A DNA stretch of 64,000 nucleotides from Streptomyces sp. CNQ-509 (GTDB lineage Bacteria > Actinomycetota > Actinomycetes > Streptomycetales > Streptomycetaceae), in contig NZ_CP011492.1 of assembly GCF_001011035.1 (NCBI RefSeq), positions 1,867,501 to 1,931,500 of the forward strand, in the 5' to 3' direction. The notes beneath the pieces were generated by a model. That model searched no databases. It worked only from the letters and a program-made list of their open reading frames with translations, and had not been told where the DNA came from. The position numbers and the translations under genes are program-made. Shown one piece after another: positions 15,855 through 23,564 of this stretch. How positions within the stretch are numbered: the stretch's first letter is position 1; each line of letters begins with the position of its first letter.

Positions 15855-15985
15855 GTAAGGTGAGCGGCGACAACTTCAACTGCGCCCCGCAGGGGAAGCC
15901 GGTGCGAAACCGGCGCTGACCCGCAACCGTGAGCGCGGCCGCCATGGCCGTGCGAGCCGGAGCACCCGCGGGGCGCGGCAGGCTC
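15855..15985 (+). promoter_or_regulatory. Cobalamin (B12) riboswitch
   Basis: The conserved core reads GGGGAAGCCGGTGCGAAACC then GGCGCTGACCCGCAACCGT (15891-15930). The downstream B12 box GAGCCGGAGCACCCGC (15954-15969) matches the AGYCMGGAGACCKGC consensus. These elements bind adenosyl- or methylcobalamin and shut off downstream expression. The outer boundaries are estimated from pairing (CCCCGC near 15885 with GCGGGGCG near 15967). The spacer between core and B12 box is short, so this may be a compact variant. It heads the five-gene operon at 16136-21996. Confidence 0.92.
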
Positions 15986-16087
15986 AAAGGGGCCCCGCCG
16001 GTACCGATGCCGGCCCGGGCCCCGTCCGTCGCGGTATGCGGAGCTGAGCCCGGTCCCCCGGCGCGCGTCGAGCGCGGACGGGCGGCC

Positions 16088-16108
16088 GCGGCCGGCTGTG
16101 CCGGCCGC
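16088..16108 (+). promoter_or_regulatory. Leader hairpin, candidate riboswitch expression platform
   Basis: GCGGCCGGC (16088-16096) and GCCGGCCGC (16100-16108) form a perfect 9-bp all-GC stem with a 3-base loop. It lies about 100 nt after the aptamer and 28 nt before the start codon. It could act as the terminator or ribosome-site sequestering stem switched by the aptamer; no T-run follows. Confidence 0.45.
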
Positions 16109-16135
16109 CCCGTCCCGAAAGGCCCCCGCTCCGTC

Positions 16136-17461
16136 ATGGCTCCGATAGGCCGGACCGCCGCCGCCCGCGGCACGCGCGCCGCACTCGCCGCCGCAGTGCT
16201 GCTGCCCCTCACCGTCGCCGGCCCGGCGTCGGCGGCCTCGGCCGCCACCGCGCCGCAGGCGGCACCGCGGGTCGCCGCGCAGGGCGCGCCCGCGCAGGCC
16301 GTACCCGCACAGAAGAAGCTGCCCGAGGGGCTTTACGGCACCGCGGACCCCGAGTTCGACGGCGTCTGGCGGCAGTCGCTGGCCCTTCTCGCCCAGCGCT
16401 CGCAGCAGTTGCGCCCGGCTCCGGCCGCGGTCGCCTTCCTCACCGGGCAGCAGTGCGCGGACGGCGGCTTCGCCGCGTACCGCGCGGATGTCGCGAAGCC
16501 CTGCGACGAGGCGGCCGAGGACACCAACGCGACCGCCGCCGCGGTGCAGGCGCTGAGCGCAGTGGGCGGGGAGCGCAAGGCCGTGGCCGAGGGCGTGGCC
16601 TGGCTGAAGGAGATCCAGAACGAGGACGGCGGCTGGGGCTTCAACCCCGGCGGCCCGACGGACGCCAACTCGACCGCGGTCGTGGTCGGTGCGCTCGCCG
16701 CGGTCGGCGAGGAGCCGGAGAAGACGACGGCGGGCGGCGGCAGCCCGTACGACGCGCTCGCGACGCTCCAACTCGGCTGCGACGCGAAGAAGGCGGAGCG
16801 GGGGGCGTACGCGTACCAGCCGGAGGACGACGGTGCGCTCTTCCCCAACGACTACGCGACCGCGGCGGCCGTGCTCGCGGGGACGGGCAGCGGCCTCGGT
16901 GCCGGCCTGGCGAAGGGGGGCGGCAAGGACGAGCCGGTCGAGGCGGGCGCCTGCACGGAGGACCCGTCCCCCGCGGAGGCGGCGGACGCGGGTGCGGCAT
17001 ACCTGGCGCAGAAGCTGGCGGCCGGCGACGGGCACCTCCCGATGGTGACCGGCGAGGGCCCCGACCACAACGCGACCGCCGTCGCCGTGCTGGCGCTGGC
17101 CGCGGGCGGCCACGGCAGCGCGGCGCGCGAGCCGTACGGCTGGCTGGAGCGCGACAAGGGCACCCTGTCCTGGTCGAAGGAGAACCCGGCGGCCCTGGCC
17201 ACCCTCATCCTCGCCGCCGACGCGGTGGACGCCGACCCGAGCGCCTTCGCGGGCGGTACGGACCTGGTGGCGAGCCTCAACGCCACGGGCCCGCAGCCGA
17301 CGGCGGAGAAGCCGGCGACGGACCCGGCGGCGTCGGAGGAGTCGTCGGACGACGACGGCGGCGGCCCGGGTGTGGCGGTCTGGTCGCTGCTGGCGGTGGG
17401 CCTGGCGGCGGGCGCGGGCATCGGCCTGCTGGCGAGCGCCCGCAGAAAGAAGCGCGCATGA
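16136..17461 (+). CDS. Secreted, membrane-anchored alpha/alpha-toroid protein (transcobalamin-like fold)
   Basis: The 441-residue protein has a signal peptide (residues 1-~33, ending GPASAAS). Its body is built from squalene-oxidase-type repeats (CADGGFAAYRAD, DTNATAAAVQALSAVGGE, NEDGGWGFNPGGPTDANSTA, GPDHNATAVAVLALAAGG). An acidic linker (~395-415) leads to a C-terminal TM segment and an RRKKRA cytoplasmic tail. Intrinsic factor and transcobalamin use the same alpha6/alpha6 barrel with D-T-x-x-A repeats. With the B12 riboswitch upstream and an ECF importer downstream, I infer a surface cobalamin or corrinoid binder. It corresponds to SCO2321. Its TGA overlaps the next ATG. Confidence 0.85.
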   Translation: MAPIGRTAAARGTRAALAAAVLLPLTVAGPASAASAATAPQAAPRVAAQGAPAQAVPAQKKLPEGLYGTADPEFDGVWRQSLALLAQRSQQLRPAPAAVAFLTGQQCADGGFAAYRADVAKPCDEAAEDTNATAAAVQALSAVGGERKAVAEGVAWLKEIQNEDGGWGFNPGGPTDANSTAVVVGALAAVGEEPEKTTAGGGSPYDALATLQLGCDAKKAERGAYAYQPEDDGALFPNDYATAAAVLAGTGSGLGAGLAKGGGKDEPVEAGACTEDPSPAEAADAGAAYLAQKLAAGDGHLPMVTGEGPDHNATAVAVLALAAGGHGSAAREPYGWLERDKGTLSWSKENPAALATLILAADAVDADPSAFAGGTDLVASLNATGPQPTAEKPATDPAASEESSDDDGGGPGVAVWSLLAVGLAAGAGIGLLASARRKKRA

Positions 17462-18186
17462 CGAGCGGCGGGCAACCGCGCCGCGGGCGGAGGACGATAC
17501 GGCAGGCGATACCACGGGTGCTCGTTGCCGTGGTCGGGGGTGCCCTGCTGGTGCTCGGGGCGGGTGCGCCGGGGGCGCAGGCCGCGGAGGGATACCGGTA
17601 CTGGTCCTTCTGGGACCGGGACGGGGACTCCTGGGTCTACGCCACCAAGGGCCCCGGGCTCGAACGGCCCGCGGACGGGGACGTGCACGGCGTGCGGTTC
17701 GCCGTCAGCGAGGAGTCCGGCGGCGGCCCGCGCCCCCGCGGGGCCGCCGGCTTCGACGCCATCTGCGGCGGCACCCCGCCCGGCGACGGCGGCAAACGCG
17801 TCGCCCTCGTCCTGGACTTCGGCACCGCCGCGGACGCCCCCGGCGGCCGGACCCCGCCCCCGGCCCGTACGGAATGCGCCTCGGTCGCCGAGGACGCCAC
17901 CCTCGGCGACGCGCTCGCCGCCGTCGCGGAGCCGCTGCGCTACGACTCCAACGGCCTGCTCTGCGCCATCGACGGATACCCGCGCAGCGGCTGCGCCGAG
18001 CCGGCGGCGTCCGACGACGGCGCCGGCGCCGGCGAGGCGCGCGACAAGGTCGACATCTCCACCGTCCCGGCGGACGAAGCCGACGACGGCGACTCCGGCC
18101 CGTCCACCGGCACGGTCGGCGGCCTCGTCATGGTCGCGGTCCTCGCCGGCCTCACGGTCTGGCAGTTGCGCCGCCGCCGCACATGA
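17458..18186 (+). CDS. SCO2322-family anchored surface protein
   Basis: The 242-residue protein has a basic N-terminus and signal peptide (cleavage near GAQAAEG, residue ~42). A Trp/Tyr-rich extracytoplasmic domain follows (GYRYWSFWDRDGDSWVYATK, VHGVRFAVSE, LRYDSNGLLCAIDGYPRSGC), then an acidic Ser/Asp linker, a C-terminal TM helix and an RRRR tail. It matches the SCO2322 family, of unknown biochemical role. Four cysteines in the ectodomain (FDAICGG, ARTECAS, LLCAID, SGCAEP) could form two disulfides. ATGA overlaps join it to both neighbours, so it is made with the toroid protein and the transporter. Confidence 0.82.
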   Translation: MTSGGQPRRGRRTIRQAIPRVLVAVVGGALLVLGAGAPGAQAAEGYRYWSFWDRDGDSWVYATKGPGLERPADGDVHGVRFAVSEESGGGPRPRGAAGFDAICGGTPPGDGGKRVALVLDFGTAADAPGGRTPPPARTECASVAEDATLGDALAAVAEPLRYDSNGLLCAIDGYPRSGCAEPAASDDGAGAGEARDKVDISTVPADEADDGDSGPSTGTVGGLVMVAVLAGLTVWQLRRRRT

Positions 18187-19400
18187 CGCCCGAGGTTCCC
18201 CACCGCCCCGGCTCCCCGCGCACCGCCGAGGGGCGGAGCGCGGCCGTGCAGGCCGTGCGCGGGGGCGGTGTCCTCCGGCCGCCCCTCGCCGACCGGGCCA
18301 ACGCCCTGCACGCCGGGGCCTGGTGGCTCTGGGCGCTCGGCCTCGCCACCGCCGCCTCCCGCACCACCAACCCCCTCCTCCTCGCCCTCCTGGTCGCCGT
18401 CGCCGGCTACGTCGTCGCCGCCCGCCGCACCGACGCGCCGTGGGCCCGCTCGTACGCCCTCTTCCTCAAGCTCGGCCTCCTCGTCATCGCCGTCCGGCTC
18501 CTCTTCGCCACCTTCCTCGGCTCCCCCATCCCCGGCACCCACACGCTCTTCACCCTCCCCGAGGTCCCTCTCCCCGAGTGGGCGCAGGGGGTGCGCCTCG
18601 GCGGCCGGGTCACCGCCGAGCAACTGACGTTCGCCTTCTACGACGGCATGAAGCTGGCCACCCTTCTCATCTGCGTCGGCGCCGCCAACGCCCTCGCCAA
18701 CCCCGCCCGTCTGCTGAAGTCCCTGCCCGCCGCGCTGTACGAACTCGGCGTCGCCGTCGTCGTCGCGATGACCTTCGCCCCGCACTTCGTCGCCGATGTC
18801 GCCCGGCTGCGCCGCGCCCGCCGGCTGCGCGGCCGCGACGACCGCGGCCCGCGGGCCCTCGTCCAGGTCGGACTCCCGGTGCTGGAGGGCGCGTTGGAGC
18901 GTTCGGTGGCGCTGGCCGCGGCGATGGACGCGCGCGGCTACGGCCGTACGGCCCGGCTCCCCCGCGCCGTCAGGATCACCACCGCCGCGCTCACCCTCGG
19001 CGGGCTCCTCGGCATCTGCGCCGGCACATACGGGCTGCTCGCCGCTTCCGGCGCCGGCTACGGCCTGCCGGTGCTGGCGCTCGGCGCCGCCGCCGCGGCC
19101 TGCGGGCTGTGGCTCGGCGGACGCCGCGCGGTGCGCAGCCGCTACCGCCCCGACCGCTTCGGCCCGCGCGCCTGGCTCGTCGCCGCCTCCGGCGCGGCCG
19201 TCGGCGGTCTGATGATCTACGCCAACTCCTACGGACCCGACGCCCTGCACCCCACCGCCGTACCCCTGACCGCGCCGGAACTGCCGCTGTGGCCGGCCGC
19301 GAGCTGCCTGCTCGGCCTGCTGCCGGCGCTCGTCGCCCCCGTACCGCCGCGGCCGCGCGAACCACGCGCCCCGAGAACCACCGAGGAGACCGCCCAGTGA
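18183..19400 (+). CDS. ECF transporter T component (CbiQ/EcfT family)
   Basis: The 405-residue integral membrane protein is the energy-coupling T component that links S component and ATPases. EcfT-type features are ADRANALHAGAWWLWALGLA at the N-terminus and two Ala-Arg-Gly-like coupling motifs, RRARRLRGRDDRGPR and AAAMDARGYGRTARL, which dock in the ATPase grooves. The C-terminal ~130 residues add further hydrophobic segments, making it longer than typical EcfT (~260). Translation is coupled on both sides (ATGA at 18183; GTGA at 19397). Confidence 0.88.
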   Translation: MTPEVPHRPGSPRTAEGRSAAVQAVRGGGVLRPPLADRANALHAGAWWLWALGLATAASRTTNPLLLALLVAVAGYVVAARRTDAPWARSYALFLKLGLLVIAVRLLFATFLGSPIPGTHTLFTLPEVPLPEWAQGVRLGGRVTAEQLTFAFYDGMKLATLLICVGAANALANPARLLKSLPAALYELGVAVVVAMTFAPHFVADVARLRRARRLRGRDDRGPRALVQVGLPVLEGALERSVALAAAMDARGYGRTARLPRAVRITTAALTLGGLLGICAGTYGLLAASGAGYGLPVLALGAAAAACGLWLGGRRAVRSRYRPDRFGPRAWLVAASGAAVGGLMIYANSYGPDALHPTAVPLTAPELPLWPAASCLLGLLPALVAPVPPRPREPRAPRTTEETAQ

Positions 19401-21055
19401 TCCGTTTCGAGGACGTGTCCGTCGTCTACGACGGCGCCGCGAAGCCCGCGATCCGGGGCGTGGACCTCACCGTCCCCGAGGGCGAACTCGCCCTGCTCGT
19501 CGGCCCCTCCGGAGTCGGCAAGTCGACGCTGCTGAACGCCGTCTGCGGGCTCGTGCCGCACTTCACCGGCGGCACCCTGCGCGGCCGCGTCACCGTCGAC
19601 GGCCGCGACACCCGTACGCACCCGCCGCGCGAACTGGCCGACGTCGTCGGCACGGTGGGCCAGGACCCGCTGGCGCACTTCGTCACGGACACGGTCGAGG
19701 ACGAACTCGCCTACGGCATGGAGTCCCTGGGCCTGCCGCGCGACACGATGCGGCGGCGGGTGGAGGAGACGCTCGACCTGCTGGGCCTCGCCGAGCTGCG
19801 CGACCGGCCGATCGCCTCGCTCTCCGGCGGCCAGCAGCAGCGTGTGGCGATCGGCTCGGTGCTGACGCCGCACCCGCGGGTGCTGGTCCTGGACGAGCCG
19901 ACGTCGGCGCTGGATCCGGCGGCGGCGGAGGAGGTGCTGGCGGTGCTCCAGCGGCTGGTGCACGACCTGGGCACGACGGTGCTGCTGGCGGAGCACCGGC
20001 TGGAGCGGGTGGTGCAGTACGCGGACCAGGTCATCGTCCTGCCGTCCCCGGGCGCGGCACCGGAGACGGGCGCGCCGGCGGAGATGATGGCGGTCTCGCC
20101 GGTACGCCCCCCGGTGGTCGCGCTGGGCCGGCTGGCGGGCTGGTCGCCGCTGCCGCTGACGGTACGGGACGCGCGCAGGCGCGCGGCGCCGCTGCGGGAA
20201 CGGCTGGCGGGGCTGGCTCCGGGCGGCGGCGAGGGCGGACCGGACGGGCGGGCCGCCGGGCCCGTCGCCGTCGCGGAGCGGTTCACCGTGCGCCGCGGGC
20301 GGGCGGAGGTGCTGCGCGGGGTGTCGCTCTCCGTCGCCGCGGGCGAGACCGTCGCGGTCATGGGGCGCAACGGCGCGGGGAAGTCCACGCTGCTGGCCGG
20401 TTTCGTCGGCATGCACCGGCCGGCCGCCGGTTCCGTACGGCTCGGGGACCTCGCCCCGCACCGCACCCGCCCGGCCGAACTCCTGCGGTACGCCGGGCTC
20501 GTACCGCAGGATCCGCGGGATCTGCTGTACGCGGACACCGTCGCCGCGGAGTGCGCAGCCGCCGACGGCGACGCGGGGGCCGCGGCCGGCACCTGCCGGG
20601 CCCTGGTCTCCGGGCTGCTGCCCGGCGTACCGGACGAGGCGCACCCCCGCGACCTGTCGGAGGGTCAGCGGCTCGCGCTCGCCCTGGCCGTGATCCTCAC
20701 CGCCCGCCCCCGGCTGCTGCTGCTCGACGAGCCGACCCGCGGCCTCGACTACGCCGCGAAGGCGCGGCTCGTCGGCGTGCTGCGCGGGCTCGCCGCGGCG
20801 GGCCACGCGATCGTGCTGGCGACGCACGACGTGGAGCTCGCCGCGGAACTGGCGCACCGGGTGGTGATCCTGGCGGACGGCGAGGTGGTCGCGGACGGGC
20901 CGACGGCGGAGGTCGTCGTCGCCTCGCCGTCGTTCGCGCCGCAGGTGGCGAAGATCCTCAGCCCGGCAGGCAGCGGCACGGCGGGCGGCACGGCGGCGGG
21001 GAGAACGTGGCTGACGGTCGCCCAGGTCCGGCACGCCCTGGAGGCGGCGGCATGA
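19397..21055 (+). CDS. ECF transporter ATPase, two ABC domains fused
   Basis: The 552-residue protein combines both ECF ATPases. The first half has Walker A GPSGVGKST, signature LSGGQQQRVAIGS, and Walker B VLVLDEPTSALD. The second half has Walker A GRNGAGKST, a variant signature LSEGQRLALALAVIL, and Walker B LLLLDEPTRGLD, with the switch His in LATHDVELA. The Q-loop and H-loop (LAEHRLERV) of domain 1 are present. The fused EcfA1-EcfA2 arrangement fits one ATPase dimer per transporter. GTG 19397 overlaps the T-component stop. Confidence 0.9.
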   Translation: MIRFEDVSVVYDGAAKPAIRGVDLTVPEGELALLVGPSGVGKSTLLNAVCGLVPHFTGGTLRGRVTVDGRDTRTHPPRELADVVGTVGQDPLAHFVTDTVEDELAYGMESLGLPRDTMRRRVEETLDLLGLAELRDRPIASLSGGQQQRVAIGSVLTPHPRVLVLDEPTSALDPAAAEEVLAVLQRLVHDLGTTVLLAEHRLERVVQYADQVIVLPSPGAAPETGAPAEMMAVSPVRPPVVALGRLAGWSPLPLTVRDARRRAAPLRERLAGLAPGGGEGGPDGRAAGPVAVAERFTVRRGRAEVLRGVSLSVAAGETVAVMGRNGAGKSTLLAGFVGMHRPAAGSVRLGDLAPHRTRPAELLRYAGLVPQDPRDLLYADTVAAECAAADGDAGAAAGTCRALVSGLLPGVPDEAHPRDLSEGQRLALALAVILTARPRLLLLDEPTRGLDYAAKARLVGVLRGLAAAGHAIVLATHDVELAAELAHRVVILADGEVVADGPTAEVVVASPSFAPQVAKILSPAGSGTAGGTAAGRTWLTVAQVRHALEAAA

Positions 21056-21996
21056 CGGCGGAGGAGCCCGGAGCCGTACCCGGGACACCGGGCGGCGATG
21101 CGTACGCGAACCCCTCGGACACCCCGGGCACGACCGGCACGCCCGGCCCCGCCGACAGGCCCCCGGCCGCCGCCCCCGCCCGCACCCCCCGGCTCCGCGT
21201 GGTGCGTCTCGGCCCCGTCTCCGCCGCCGCCCTGCTGCTCGTCTCCGTCATCGGCGTCGCCGCCTTCGGCTGGCCGCTGCTCGCCGGGCCCGACTCCGGG
21301 CTCGCCCACTCCGGCGACGCCCCCTGGCTCTTCGCCGCCCTCCTGCCCCTCCTCGTCGCCGTGGTCGGCGCGACCATCGCCGACGCCGGGCTCGACGCCA
21401 AGGCCGTCGCGATGCTCGGCGTCCTCGCCGCCGTGGGCGCCGCGCTGCGGCCCCTCGGGGCGGGGACGGCGGGGATCGAACCGATGTTCTTCCTCATGGT
21501 GCTCTCCGGCCGGGTGCTGGGACCGGGCTTCGGGTTCGTGCTCGGGGCCGTGACGATGTTCGCGTCCGCCCTGCTCACGGGCGGGGTCGGGCCCTGGATG
21601 CCGTTCCAGATGCTGGCCATGGGCTGGGTCGCGATGGGCGCCGGGCTGCTGCCGGGGGCGGAGCGGCTGCGGGGGCGCCGGGAGTTGTGGCTGCTTGCCT
21701 CGTATGGAGCAATCGCTTCAGTTCTTTACGGCACGGTCATGAATCTCCAGGGGTGGCCGTATCTGAGCGGTATGTCCACGGGCGTGTCGTTCGTCGCGGG
21801 CGATCCGCTGCCGGAGAACCTGGCCCGTTTCGTCGCGTACTGCCTCGCCACGTCCCTGGGTTGGGATCTGCCGCGCGCGGTGGTGACGGCGGTGTGCACG
21901 CTGACCCTCGGCCGGGCCGTGCTCGCCGCGCTGCGCCGCGCCACCCGAAAGGCCGCATTCAGCACTCCGGTGACATTCGAGACGCGAAACCCCTGA
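21052..21996 (+). CDS. ECF transporter S component, predicted cobalamin/corrinoid-specific
   Basis: The 314-residue protein has a ~48-residue Pro/Thr/Gly-rich cytoplasmic extension followed by about six TM segments (e.g. LGPVSAAALLLVSVIGVAAF, KAVAMLGVLAAVGAALRP, FFLMVLSGRVLGPGFGFVLG, VGPWMPFQMLAMGWVAMGAG). The G-P-G-x-G-F and GGVGPWMPFQM segments are typical of S components that carry vitamins. Substrate assignment rests on the B12 riboswitch and the toroid protein, not on S-component residues. It is the last gene of the operon; ATG 21052 overlaps the ATPase stop. Confidence 0.85.
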   Translation: MTAEEPGAVPGTPGGDAYANPSDTPGTTGTPGPADRPPAAAPARTPRLRVVRLGPVSAAALLLVSVIGVAAFGWPLLAGPDSGLAHSGDAPWLFAALLPLLVAVVGATIADAGLDAKAVAMLGVLAAVGAALRPLGAGTAGIEPMFFLMVLSGRVLGPGFGFVLGAVTMFASALLTGGVGPWMPFQMLAMGWVAMGAGLLPGAERLRGRRELWLLASYGAIASVLYGTVMNLQGWPYLSGMSTGVSFVAGDPLPENLARFVAYCLATSLGWDLPRAVVTAVCTLTLGRAVLAALRRATRKAAFSTPVTFETRNP

Positions 21997-22034: not shown

Positions 22035-23564
22035 ATGGCAGACGACTACCTCGTGCGCATCGGCAGGCTCATCCGTGACGCCCGGCAGCACCGCGGATGG
22101 TCGCAGAGCCAGCTCGCCGCCGCGCTGGGCACCAGTCAGAGCGCCGTCAACCGCATCGAGCGCGGCCATCAGAACATCAGCCTGGAGATGATCGCCCGCA
22201 TCGGCGAGGCACTGGACAGCGAGATCGTCGCCCTGGGCACCGCGGGCCCGATGCATCTGCGGGTGAGCGGCGGCCGCCGGCTGTCCGGCGCGATCGACGT
22301 GAAGACCAGCAAGAACGCCTGCGTCGCGCTGCTCTGCGCCACGCTGCTGAACTCCGGCCGCACGGTGCTGCGCCGGGTGGCGCGGATCGAGGAGGTCTTC
22401 CGCATCCTGGAGGTGCTGAACAGCATCGGGGTGCGGACCCGCTGGATCAACGACGCCGCCGACCTGGAGGTCGTCCCCCCGGCGGAGCTGGACCTGGACT
22501 CCATGGACAACGCGGCGGCGCGCCGCACCCGCAGCGTGATCATGTTCCTCGGCCCGCTGCTGCACCGGGTGGAGCGCTTCAAACTCCCGTACGCGGGCGG
22601 CTGCGACCTCGGCACCAGGACCGTACAGCCGCACATGGCCGTGCTGCGCCGCTTCGGCCTGGACGTGACGGCCACCGAGGGCGTCTACCACTGCGAGGTC
22701 GTCTCGGACGTCGGCCCCGACCGGGCCATCGTGCTGACCGAGCGCGGCGACACCGTGACCGAGAACGCGCTGCTGGCCGCCGCCCGGCACGACGGCGTGA
22801 CCGAGATCCGCAACGCCAGCTCCAACTACATGGTCCAGGACCTGTGCTTCTTCCTGGAGCACCTGGGCGTGCGCGTGGACGGCGTGGGCTCGACCACGCT
22901 GCGGGTGCACGGCGTGCCGTACATCGACAGGGACGTCGACTTCTCCCCGTCCGAGGACCCGGTGGAGGCGATGAGCCTGCTGGCGGCGGCGGTCGTCACG
23001 TCGTCGGAGCTGACGGTGCGGCGGGCGCCGGTGGAGTTCCTGGAGATCGAGCTGTCGGTGCTGGAGGAGATGGGCCTCGACCTCGACCGCACCCCGGAGT
23101 ACGCGGCCGACAACGGCCGTACCCGGCTGGTGGATCTGACCGTTCGCCCGTCGAAGCTCCAGGCGCCGATCGACAAGATCCACCCGATGCCGTTTCCCGG
23201 CGTCAACATCGACAACGTGCCGTTCTTCGCGGCCATCGCCGCCTCCGCGCAGGGCTCGACCCTCATCCACGACTGGGTCTACGACAACCGCGCCATCTAC
23301 CTCACGGAACTGACCCGCCTGGGCGCCGGCGTGAAACTCCTCGACCCGCACCGCGTGCTGGTCGAGGGCCCGACGCGGTGGCGCGAGACGGAGATGATGT
23401 GCCCGCCCGCGCTGCGCCCCGCGGTGGTGGTGCTGCTGGGCATGATGGCGGCGGAGGGCACGTCGGTGCTCCGCAACGTCTATGTCATCAACCGGGGTTA
23501 CGAGTCCCTGGCCGACCGCCTCAACTCGGTGGGCGCCCGCATCGAGACCTTCCGCGACATCTGA
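22035..23564 (+). CDS. XRE DNA-binding domain fused to MurA-like enolpyruvyl transferase
   Basis: The 509-residue protein has an XRE helix-turn-helix at residues ~5-65 (RDARQHRGWSQSQLAAALGT, QSAVNRIERG). An EPSP-synthase/MurA fold follows from ~72. MurA-like residues are K93-N94 in VKTSKNACVAL and a cysteine (C190) in YAGGCDLGTRTVQPH, matching the catalytic loop of MurA. GVNIDNVPFFAAIAASAQG and DWVYDNRAIYLTELTRLGA are late MurA-type blocks. It resembles SCO5998-type proteins, distinct from housekeeping MurA. It could make enolpyruvyl-UDP-GlcNAc, or act as a regulator sensing that substrate. It lies 38 bp after the B12 operon. Confidence 0.87.
   Translation: MADDYLVRIGRLIRDARQHRGWSQSQLAAALGTSQSAVNRIERGHQNISLEMIARIGEALDSEIVALGTAGPMHLRVSGGRRLSGAIDVKTSKNACVALLCATLLNSGRTVLRRVARIEEVFRILEVLNSIGVRTRWINDAADLEVVPPAELDLDSMDNAAARRTRSVIMFLGPLLHRVERFKLPYAGGCDLGTRTVQPHMAVLRRFGLDVTATEGVYHCEVVSDVGPDRAIVLTERGDTVTENALLAAARHDGVTEIRNASSNYMVQDLCFFLEHLGVRVDGVGSTTLRVHGVPYIDRDVDFSPSEDPVEAMSLLAAAVVTSSELTVRRAPVEFLEIELSVLEEMGLDLDRTPEYAADNGRTRLVDLTVRPSKLQAPIDKIHPMPFPGVNIDNVPFFAAIAASAQGSTLIHDWVYDNRAIYLTELTRLGAGVKLLDPHRVLVEGPTRWRETEMMCPPALRPAVVVLLGMMAAEGTSVLRNVYVINRGYESLADRLNSVGARIETFRDI

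Follow-up and report, generated by a model that had tools for sequence, protein, structure and literature searches.

Organization of the operon and its riboswitch leader

The 64,000-nucleotide stretch of Streptomyces sp. CNQ-509 DNA analyzed here (the window) corresponds to positions 1867501–1931500 of the 8.04 Mb single-contig genome and contains a five-gene operon preceded by a cobalamin riboswitch aptamer (Table 1). The operon encodes a toroid protein (P1), a beta-domain protein (P2) and the parts of an energy-coupling factor (ECF) importer, namely the membrane subunit EcfT (T), a fused double ATPase (A) and an S component (S). It is quite probable that this is a dedicated corrinoid (B12) importer, with P1 and P2, both predicted to be anchored at the surface, capturing the ligand and passing it to the ECF complex. 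With EcfT, two ATPase domains and an S component within one operon, the locus has the composition of a dedicated (group I) ECF importer.

The initial annotation of this DNA had described an aptamer followed by five overlapping genes for two anchored exoproteins, EcfT, a fused double ATPase and an S component, and this description was recovered in full. The RF00174 match of 31.5 bits lies exactly at the gathering score of 31.5 bits, placing it in the family by score (E 4.2e-6, 801-base search), and each of the four gene junctions has a 4-base overlap (ATGA, ATGA, GTGA and ATGA, in order). The products agree with the description in their family matches and hydrophobic segments. P1 matched the SCO2321 family model NF053823 with 453.7 bits (cut-off 300) in addition to toroid Pfam families (PF13243, 28.9 bits), and P2 matched the SCO2322 family model NF040672 with 214.2 bits (cut-off 85), the PF28005 assignment of P2 being the precomputed annotation of the identical protein P0001. 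Both have a hydrophobic segment near each end, the N-terminal one signal-like and the C-terminal one preceding an Arg/Lys-rich tail, which is the pattern expected of secreted, C-terminally anchored proteins. The closest named relatives were found in Streptomyces sp. CMB-StM0423 for P1 (94%) and in Streptomyces sp. NBC_01808 for P2 (92% over 81%).

The same aptamer was among the four RF00174 matches recovered from the whole genome, and it was not listed by a scan of the whole window with the Rfam fast filters. Taken alone the match is borderline, since its score only equals the gathering score and the fast scan is without it. Another Streptomyces cobalamin riboswitch is the subject of PMC8914203, as excerpted.

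Table 1. Features of the operon, with positions in the window
Feature	Position	Strand	Match or remark
Cobalamin riboswitch aptamer core	15892..15967	+	RF00174, model positions 45-169; leader extends to 16135
P1, SCO2321 family, predicted secreted and C-terminally anchored toroid protein	16136..17461	+	NF053823, PF13243
P1 residues 26-248, toroid-profile positions 84-288 (first in P1)	16211..16879	+	133.5 bits
P1 residues 275-384, toroid-profile positions 11-117 (second; permuted order)	16958..17287	+	42.6 bits
P2, SCO2322 family, predicted secreted and C-terminally anchored beta-domain protein	17458..18186	+	NF040672, PF28005
P2 piece, C-terminal in colinear relatives (YWSFW...WVYATKG...DGDVHGVRF)	17587..17790	+	profile match
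P2 piece, N-terminal in colinear relatives (KRVALVLDFG...DALAAV...LLCAIDGYP..GC)	17791..18009	+	profile match
EcfT membrane subunit	18183..19400	+	PF02361, 34.1 bits (cut-off 25)
Fused double ECF ATPase (EcfA-EcfA')	19397..21055	+	two ABC_tran stretches; TIGR04520/TIGR04521 best, below cut-offs
ECF S component	21052..21996	+	PF12822, 42.2 bits (cut-off 30.7); family profile matches CbrT

P2 as a permuted beta domain

The first sign of a permutation was given by proteins of two genomes, which match the SCO2322 model in swapped order. Against a profile of its colinear relatives, P2 gave two pieces in reversed order with 35.7 and 13.1 bits, and with its halves exchanged a single match of 62.7 bits. 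All 120 listed P2 homologues, a set that includes the P2 of the window and whose named members are nearly all Streptomyces, scored higher swapped than native (means 65.2 vs 39.5). None of 61 colinear control domains did so (64 supplied, three unparsed; 48 of the 61 from loci outside the profile), and the 163 scored among 200 shuffled versions of P2 reached at most 8.3 bits. Judged by these profile scores, P2 is a circular permutation of the beta domain of its colinear relatives. It should be noted that three beta domains (L035, L040 and L147) counted as colinear only because their second piece scored under the limit or went unrecognized; over their full length they match NF040672.

The colinear relatives have, according to structure prediction, the transcobalamin beta fold. 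This fold of the transcobalamin/intrinsic factor family was found on a colinear relative, and P2 is tied to it by the swapped-half profile match. A Pfam scan (hmmscan) of the members of profiles A1 and A5 gave nothing significant.

The toroid protein P1

A toroid profile from which the window and its Streptomyces relatives were excluded matched P1 in two pieces in permuted order (Table 1). In a rotation test, 57 Streptomyces-type toroids (that of the window and 56 of 120 retrieved, those with parseable ends) were compared with profiles of Chloroflexota toroids and of colinear Actinomycetota toroids. The best rotation gained a median of 48.0 bits with the first profile and 65.6 bits with the second, and the gain exceeded 15 bits in 56 and in all 57 of the toroids, respectively. 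Three toroids of other permuted lineages gained 3.2–27.6 and 36.9–56.6 bits, and a fourth such toroid (L152) gained 5.9 bits in a separate rotation test, while the colinear controls gaining more than 5 bits were 0 of 20 and 0 of 29. On these scores P1 appears to be circularly permuted too, with evidence weaker than that for P2 because toroids contain internal repeats. Extra repeats in P1 in place of a permutation were considered and set aside, since the two pieces add up to roughly a single toroid in length and none of the 49 colinear toroids, rotated across clades, gained more than 5 bits.

Two loci (L062 and L077) have toroid matches in permuted order beside a colinear beta domain and are possibly intermediates in the history of the two permutations. 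A stepwise history with the toroid permuted first, at which these loci hint, is not claimed, as the trimmed sequences gain less than 5 bits.

With respect to the toroid family, a match to SQHop_cyclase_C at E<=1 was found in 52 of 55 toroids and one to PF01122 (Cobalamin_bind) in nine, P1 itself having no match to this alpha-toroid family at E<=1. An Anaerolineae toroid (L104) passes the PF01122 cut-off as its best match with 30.6 bits and was the only one of ten toroids scanned singly with PF01122 at E<=0.01. No animal carrier was found with the P1 profile A2 against PDB sequences at E<=1, nor among the best 60 of 94 matches of the toroid-family profile A6. The C-terminal ends vary by lineage, with a membrane segment in P1, CWB2 in another lineage, SLH (PF00395) in two of the 55 toroids and an LPxTG-like end in L056.

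These matches bear on the possibility that the toroid is a surface enzyme, a cyclase or hydrolase, and that only P2 and the ECF complex serve B12. P1 and its family do match squalene-hopene cyclases best, the toroid is optional (see below), and a DxDD motif, which we take to be the acid motif of squalene-hopene and other class II cyclases, occurs somewhere in eight of the 55 toroids. This motif is nowhere in P1, toroids are fused to beta domains in two separate lineages and one toroid passes PF01122, and an enzyme is accordingly judged unlikely.

Toroid-beta pairing and the S component

In animal cobalamin carriers the toroid and beta domain form one chain. The window has them on two genes and does not share this single-chain arrangement of the transcobalamin/intrinsic factor family. 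A single chain with toroid, beta domain and CWB2 wall-binding repeats was found in Euzebya (Actinomycetota), and five Chloroflexota loci have a single chain with a beta domain and two toroid matches. To judge from these fused sequences, toroid and beta domain belong together. Within a binder resembling intrinsic factor, P1 likely forms the alpha-toroid half and P2 the beta half.

A profile (A7) was made of 51 S-component sequences of the system, that of the window first, and compared with PDB sequences. It matched 6fnp_A (CbrT) with a whole-sequence E of 2.2e-7 and 3e-5 for the best stretch, and nothing else at E<=1, so that the S family shows sequence homology to CbrT and not to any other S component of solved structure. 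That the operon might import cobalt, as the CbiQ name of the EcfT family PF02361 would suggest, is extremely unlikely: PF02361 presumably covers EcfT subunits generally, the S protein matches PF12822 only and belongs to the family of CbrT, and the partner family has a predicted cobalamin-carrier fold. ECF-CbrT transports cobalamin and cobinamide (PMC5997447, as excerpted).

Conservation within Actinomycetota

A P2-family match was found in 44 of 296 sampled genomes of the phylum. An RF00174 match lies on the same strand within 4 kb upstream in 37 of these 44, so the linkage of aptamer and P2 exceeds chance. Forty-four regions around such matches were retrieved, the window excluded; EcfT, ATPase and S component are also encoded in 38 (the remaining six include short contigs), and a toroid was found in 37 (39 open frames).

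At the level of the class, 144 of 345 sampled genomes have a P2-family match, 118 of them above the cut-off, and 32 of 33 listed genomes of the genus of the window have one. The aptamer survey of the class drew on 117 of the 118, of which 10 had been examined earlier and 103 of the other 107 were examined here. In these 103 the aptamer lies upstream of P2 in 14 of 23 Streptomyces and 69 of 80 other genomes; combined with the first nine Streptomyces (6/9), the genus total is 20 of 32. The distances from aptamer to P2 are bimodal, 38 below 700 bases and 46 at 1.1–1.93 kb, which fits a toroid gene that is either present or absent. Among 10 sampled Actinomycetes loci, P2-T-A-S was found in all 10 and the toroid in four, which points to the beta protein as the constant partner and the toroid as optional. 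The weight that the initial annotation had placed on the toroid as capture protein is not upheld by this, given also the best matches of the toroid to squalene cyclases. The riboswitch accompanies P2 and the ECF genes in many relatives, and the toroid is inconstant.

Some loci show other arrangements. On the single 1.35 Mb contig of the small genome G347 (L145), the only cobalamin aptamer detected, with 29.3 bits (below cut-off), heads a toroid-less P2-T-A-S. In one Streptomyces (L056, G171) the system occurs a second time, in colinear form and in the order beta, T, A, S and the toroid with the LPxTG-like end; the aptamer ahead of it scores 26.9 bits, which is below cut-off. In L070, a second cobalamin aptamer (G294:C5:48899-49039, 37.8 bits) is immediately followed by the gene for a solitary small beta-domain protein whose start resembles that of a lipoprotein (L070:1098-1661), on the same contig as the ECF operon and apart from it.

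Occurrence in Chloroflexota

A profile of colinear P2 relatives run over named genomes gave 48 loci, 12 repeating earlier ones and 36 new. Among the 48, one is from an Acidimicrobiales genome, two have no phylum in the record and the rest of the non-repeats are Chloroflexota, including Anaerolineae, Thermomicrobia, Thermoflexus, Dehalococcoidia and others, the assignment of these classes to the phylum being in part our assumption. Many of the 36 non-repeat loci are truncated by contig ends. A toroid was found in 29 and the full set of toroid, beta domain, T, A and S in 16; in two of these 16 (L113 and L116) the ATPase match is weak and set apart. The ECF genes of L091 are on the opposite strand. 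The RNA-family search covered 26 of the 36 and placed a cobalamin aptamer above cut-off in 8 of 12 and 13 of 14 loci, with no other RNA family listed; the searched loci without one are L094, L096, L105, L112 and L123. Aptamer, beta protein, EcfT, ATPase and S component thus recur together in both Actinomycetota and Chloroflexota.

Seven loci with toroid, beta domain, EcfT and ATPase and no S match (L096, L105, L106, L110, L112, L119 and L123) are of the Thermomicrobia type, and their S component may have diverged or be encoded elsewhere. Two beta-domain frames are present in 19 of the 36 loci. Separate beta-domain genes are found as neighboring pairs in L095, L097, L098, L099, L101, L104 and L108 as well as in L109, L111, L114, L115, L118, L120 and L124, and many Chloroflexota loci carry two divergent beta proteins each.

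Other B12 functions of the genome

All four aptamer sites of the genome are B12-related. The strongest, of 103.3 bits, lies directly above a BtuFCD-type cassette (L136:2541-6407, genome 3572540-3576406) with PF01497 (Peripla_BP_2), PF01032 (FecCD) and an ABC ATPase, followed by an FhuF_C-domain protein. A 47.9-bit aptamer lies beside the large subunit of a ribonucleotide reductase (L137:2864-5440), and one of 29.4 bits (below cut-off) about 1.3 kb before a CobN frame (L138:2593-6972). A cobJ match above cut-off was also found. The genome thus probably makes B12 and also has a BtuFCD-type importer, judging from these family matches. The PF01497 binder and PF01032 permease present there were not found in the operon.

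The presence of this importer together with B12 synthesis weakens the case for the operon as the principal route, and another corrinoid may be its ligand. The operon could then salvage cobinamide or incomplete or other cobamides, with cobalamin taken up by the BtuFCD-type system. The cassette beside the strongest aptamer, cobJ and CobN all fit such a division, as does the acceptance of cobinamide besides cobalamin by CbrT (PMC5997447, as excerpted). The same excerpted text describes both the animal carriers and CbrT as polyspecific, and nothing here separates the ligands; given this polyspecificity, cobalamin is the simplest ligand, and a division of this kind is considered rather unlikely.

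The gene next to the operon, 38 bases past the S component (22035-23564), encodes a MurA-like enolpyruvyl transferase with an N-terminal helix-turn-helix domain.

Proposed function of the system

Four lines of evidence, namely the aptamer linkage, the fold of the P2 relatives, the CbrT match and the toroid-beta fusions, argue for an extracellular binder serving an ECF B12 importer. The initial annotation had proposed an extracellular corrinoid binder for the importer, and this part is retained, while its choice of the toroid as main binder is not. Somewhat less firmly than the import function itself, the system is favored to be a bacterial counterpart of intrinsic factor, in which a toroid and a transcobalamin-type beta domain, anchored at the surface, feed a CbrT-type ECF importer, both halves being permuted in Streptomyces.

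Low intracellular cobalamin would open the leader and switch the operon on. P2 would bind the corrinoid at the surface, with P1, where present, closing the other face and the C-terminal anchors keeping both near the membrane. The ligand would be handed to the CbrT-like S component, which would release it inward at the expense of ATP hydrolyzed by the ECF module. It may be speculated that through the circular permutations the binding face is oriented differently with respect to the anchor.

The anchors would also suit proteins that store corrinoid at the surface or deny it to competitors without any hand-over to the S component of the operon. Both P1 and P2 have a predicted C-terminal anchor, relatives have wall anchors, and the S family resembles CbrT, for which the excerpted text of PMC5997447 mentions no partner protein. 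Storage or denial is nevertheless quite unlikely, as the stop of P2 overlaps the start of EcfT and P2 adjoins T, A and S in all 10 sampled loci.

A number of observations weigh against an importer with an intrinsic-factor-like binder. The model of P2 itself, made from 35 close sequences, was poor (pLDDT 53.5) and was for this reason not used for a fold search, so that the fold evidence comes from colinear relatives, and no animal carrier was found with profiles A1 and A5 against PDB sequences at E<=10. The P1 profile matches squalene cyclases and not intrinsic factor, and the rotation gain of P1 was the weakest of the 57 toroids (12.3 bits; 33.5 bits with the second profile). The toroid is absent from six of the 10 sampled Actinomycetes loci and from 20 of 91 loci, some of them truncated by contig ends. 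An upstream aptamer was not found in 12 of 32 Streptomyces, and three of these, rechecked at E<=0.05, still gave no match. Outside the first survey all five parts were found in only 16 of 36 loci; seven of the 36 have EcfT and ATPase without an S match by the family profile, and four of these seven also lack an aptamer above cut-off. DUF4430 (PF14478) matched one of 64 A5 members, at E 0.16, and P2 not at all. Lastly, the riboswitch-linked BtuFCD-type cassette is a candidate for the alternative route that had been named in the initial annotation, and with this second candidate importer and genes of B12 synthesis the operon is not needed as sole route.

If the proposed function is correct, the fold that B12 carriers use in the blood and gut of animals exists in a bacterial version linked to a membrane importer, and the system would be the sister or source of the animal carriers, giving an origin for intrinsic factor and transcobalamin. 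It would be a widespread system, given the P2-family matches across the class, and would supply a function for two families that have a name and none assigned. The toroid and beta domain would be two domains of one machine, both seemingly altered by circular permutation. ECF importers could then possess dedicated extracellular binders, and to our knowledge this would be the first that does.

Comparison with known systems

What sets the system apart is a surface binder of transcobalamin type, predicted to serve an ECF importer of B12. A search of the open-access literature, a scope outside which the 2009 ECF survey by Rodionov and others (10.1128/JB.01208-08) lies, gave no account of the system among the matches listed; SCO2322 had no match there, and the sole match for SCO2321, SCO2323, SCO2324 and SCO2325 concerns a transdermal peptide. 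P1 and P2 are members of the SCO2321 and SCO2322 families (NF053823 and NF040672; PF28005), which have names but no stated function in NCBIfam, and the relation to the carrier beta domain and the permutations are added by the present analysis. As for DUF4430, the structure 3u7z from Ruminococcus gnavus is presumably of a DUF4430 protein. No bacterial cobalamin function is given for this domain in PMC4350170 or PMC9963975, as excerpted.

BtuFCD is likewise a riboswitch-linked importer with an extracytoplasmic binder, but its binder and permease belong to other families (PF01497 and PF01032, respectively). ECF-CbrT of Lactobacillus delbrueckii (PDB 6FNP; PMC5997447) resembles the operon in the sequence family of its S component and in the proposed ligand, cobalamin. 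According to the excerpted text, CbrT is one of several S components served by a common ECF module, and an extracellular partner is not mentioned for it, whereas the operon of the window unites T, A and S with an aptamer and with two proteins predicted to lie at the surface.

The likeness to transcobalamin, haptocorrin and intrinsic factor lies in the predicted beta fold of the colinear relatives of P2 and in the toroid-beta pairing. The window differs from these animal carriers in having two separate proteins, with P2 permuted and P1 apparently so, neither of which has a significant sequence match to the animal proteins. The ligand would here be delivered to an ECF importer, and in animals it is delivered to an endocytic receptor.

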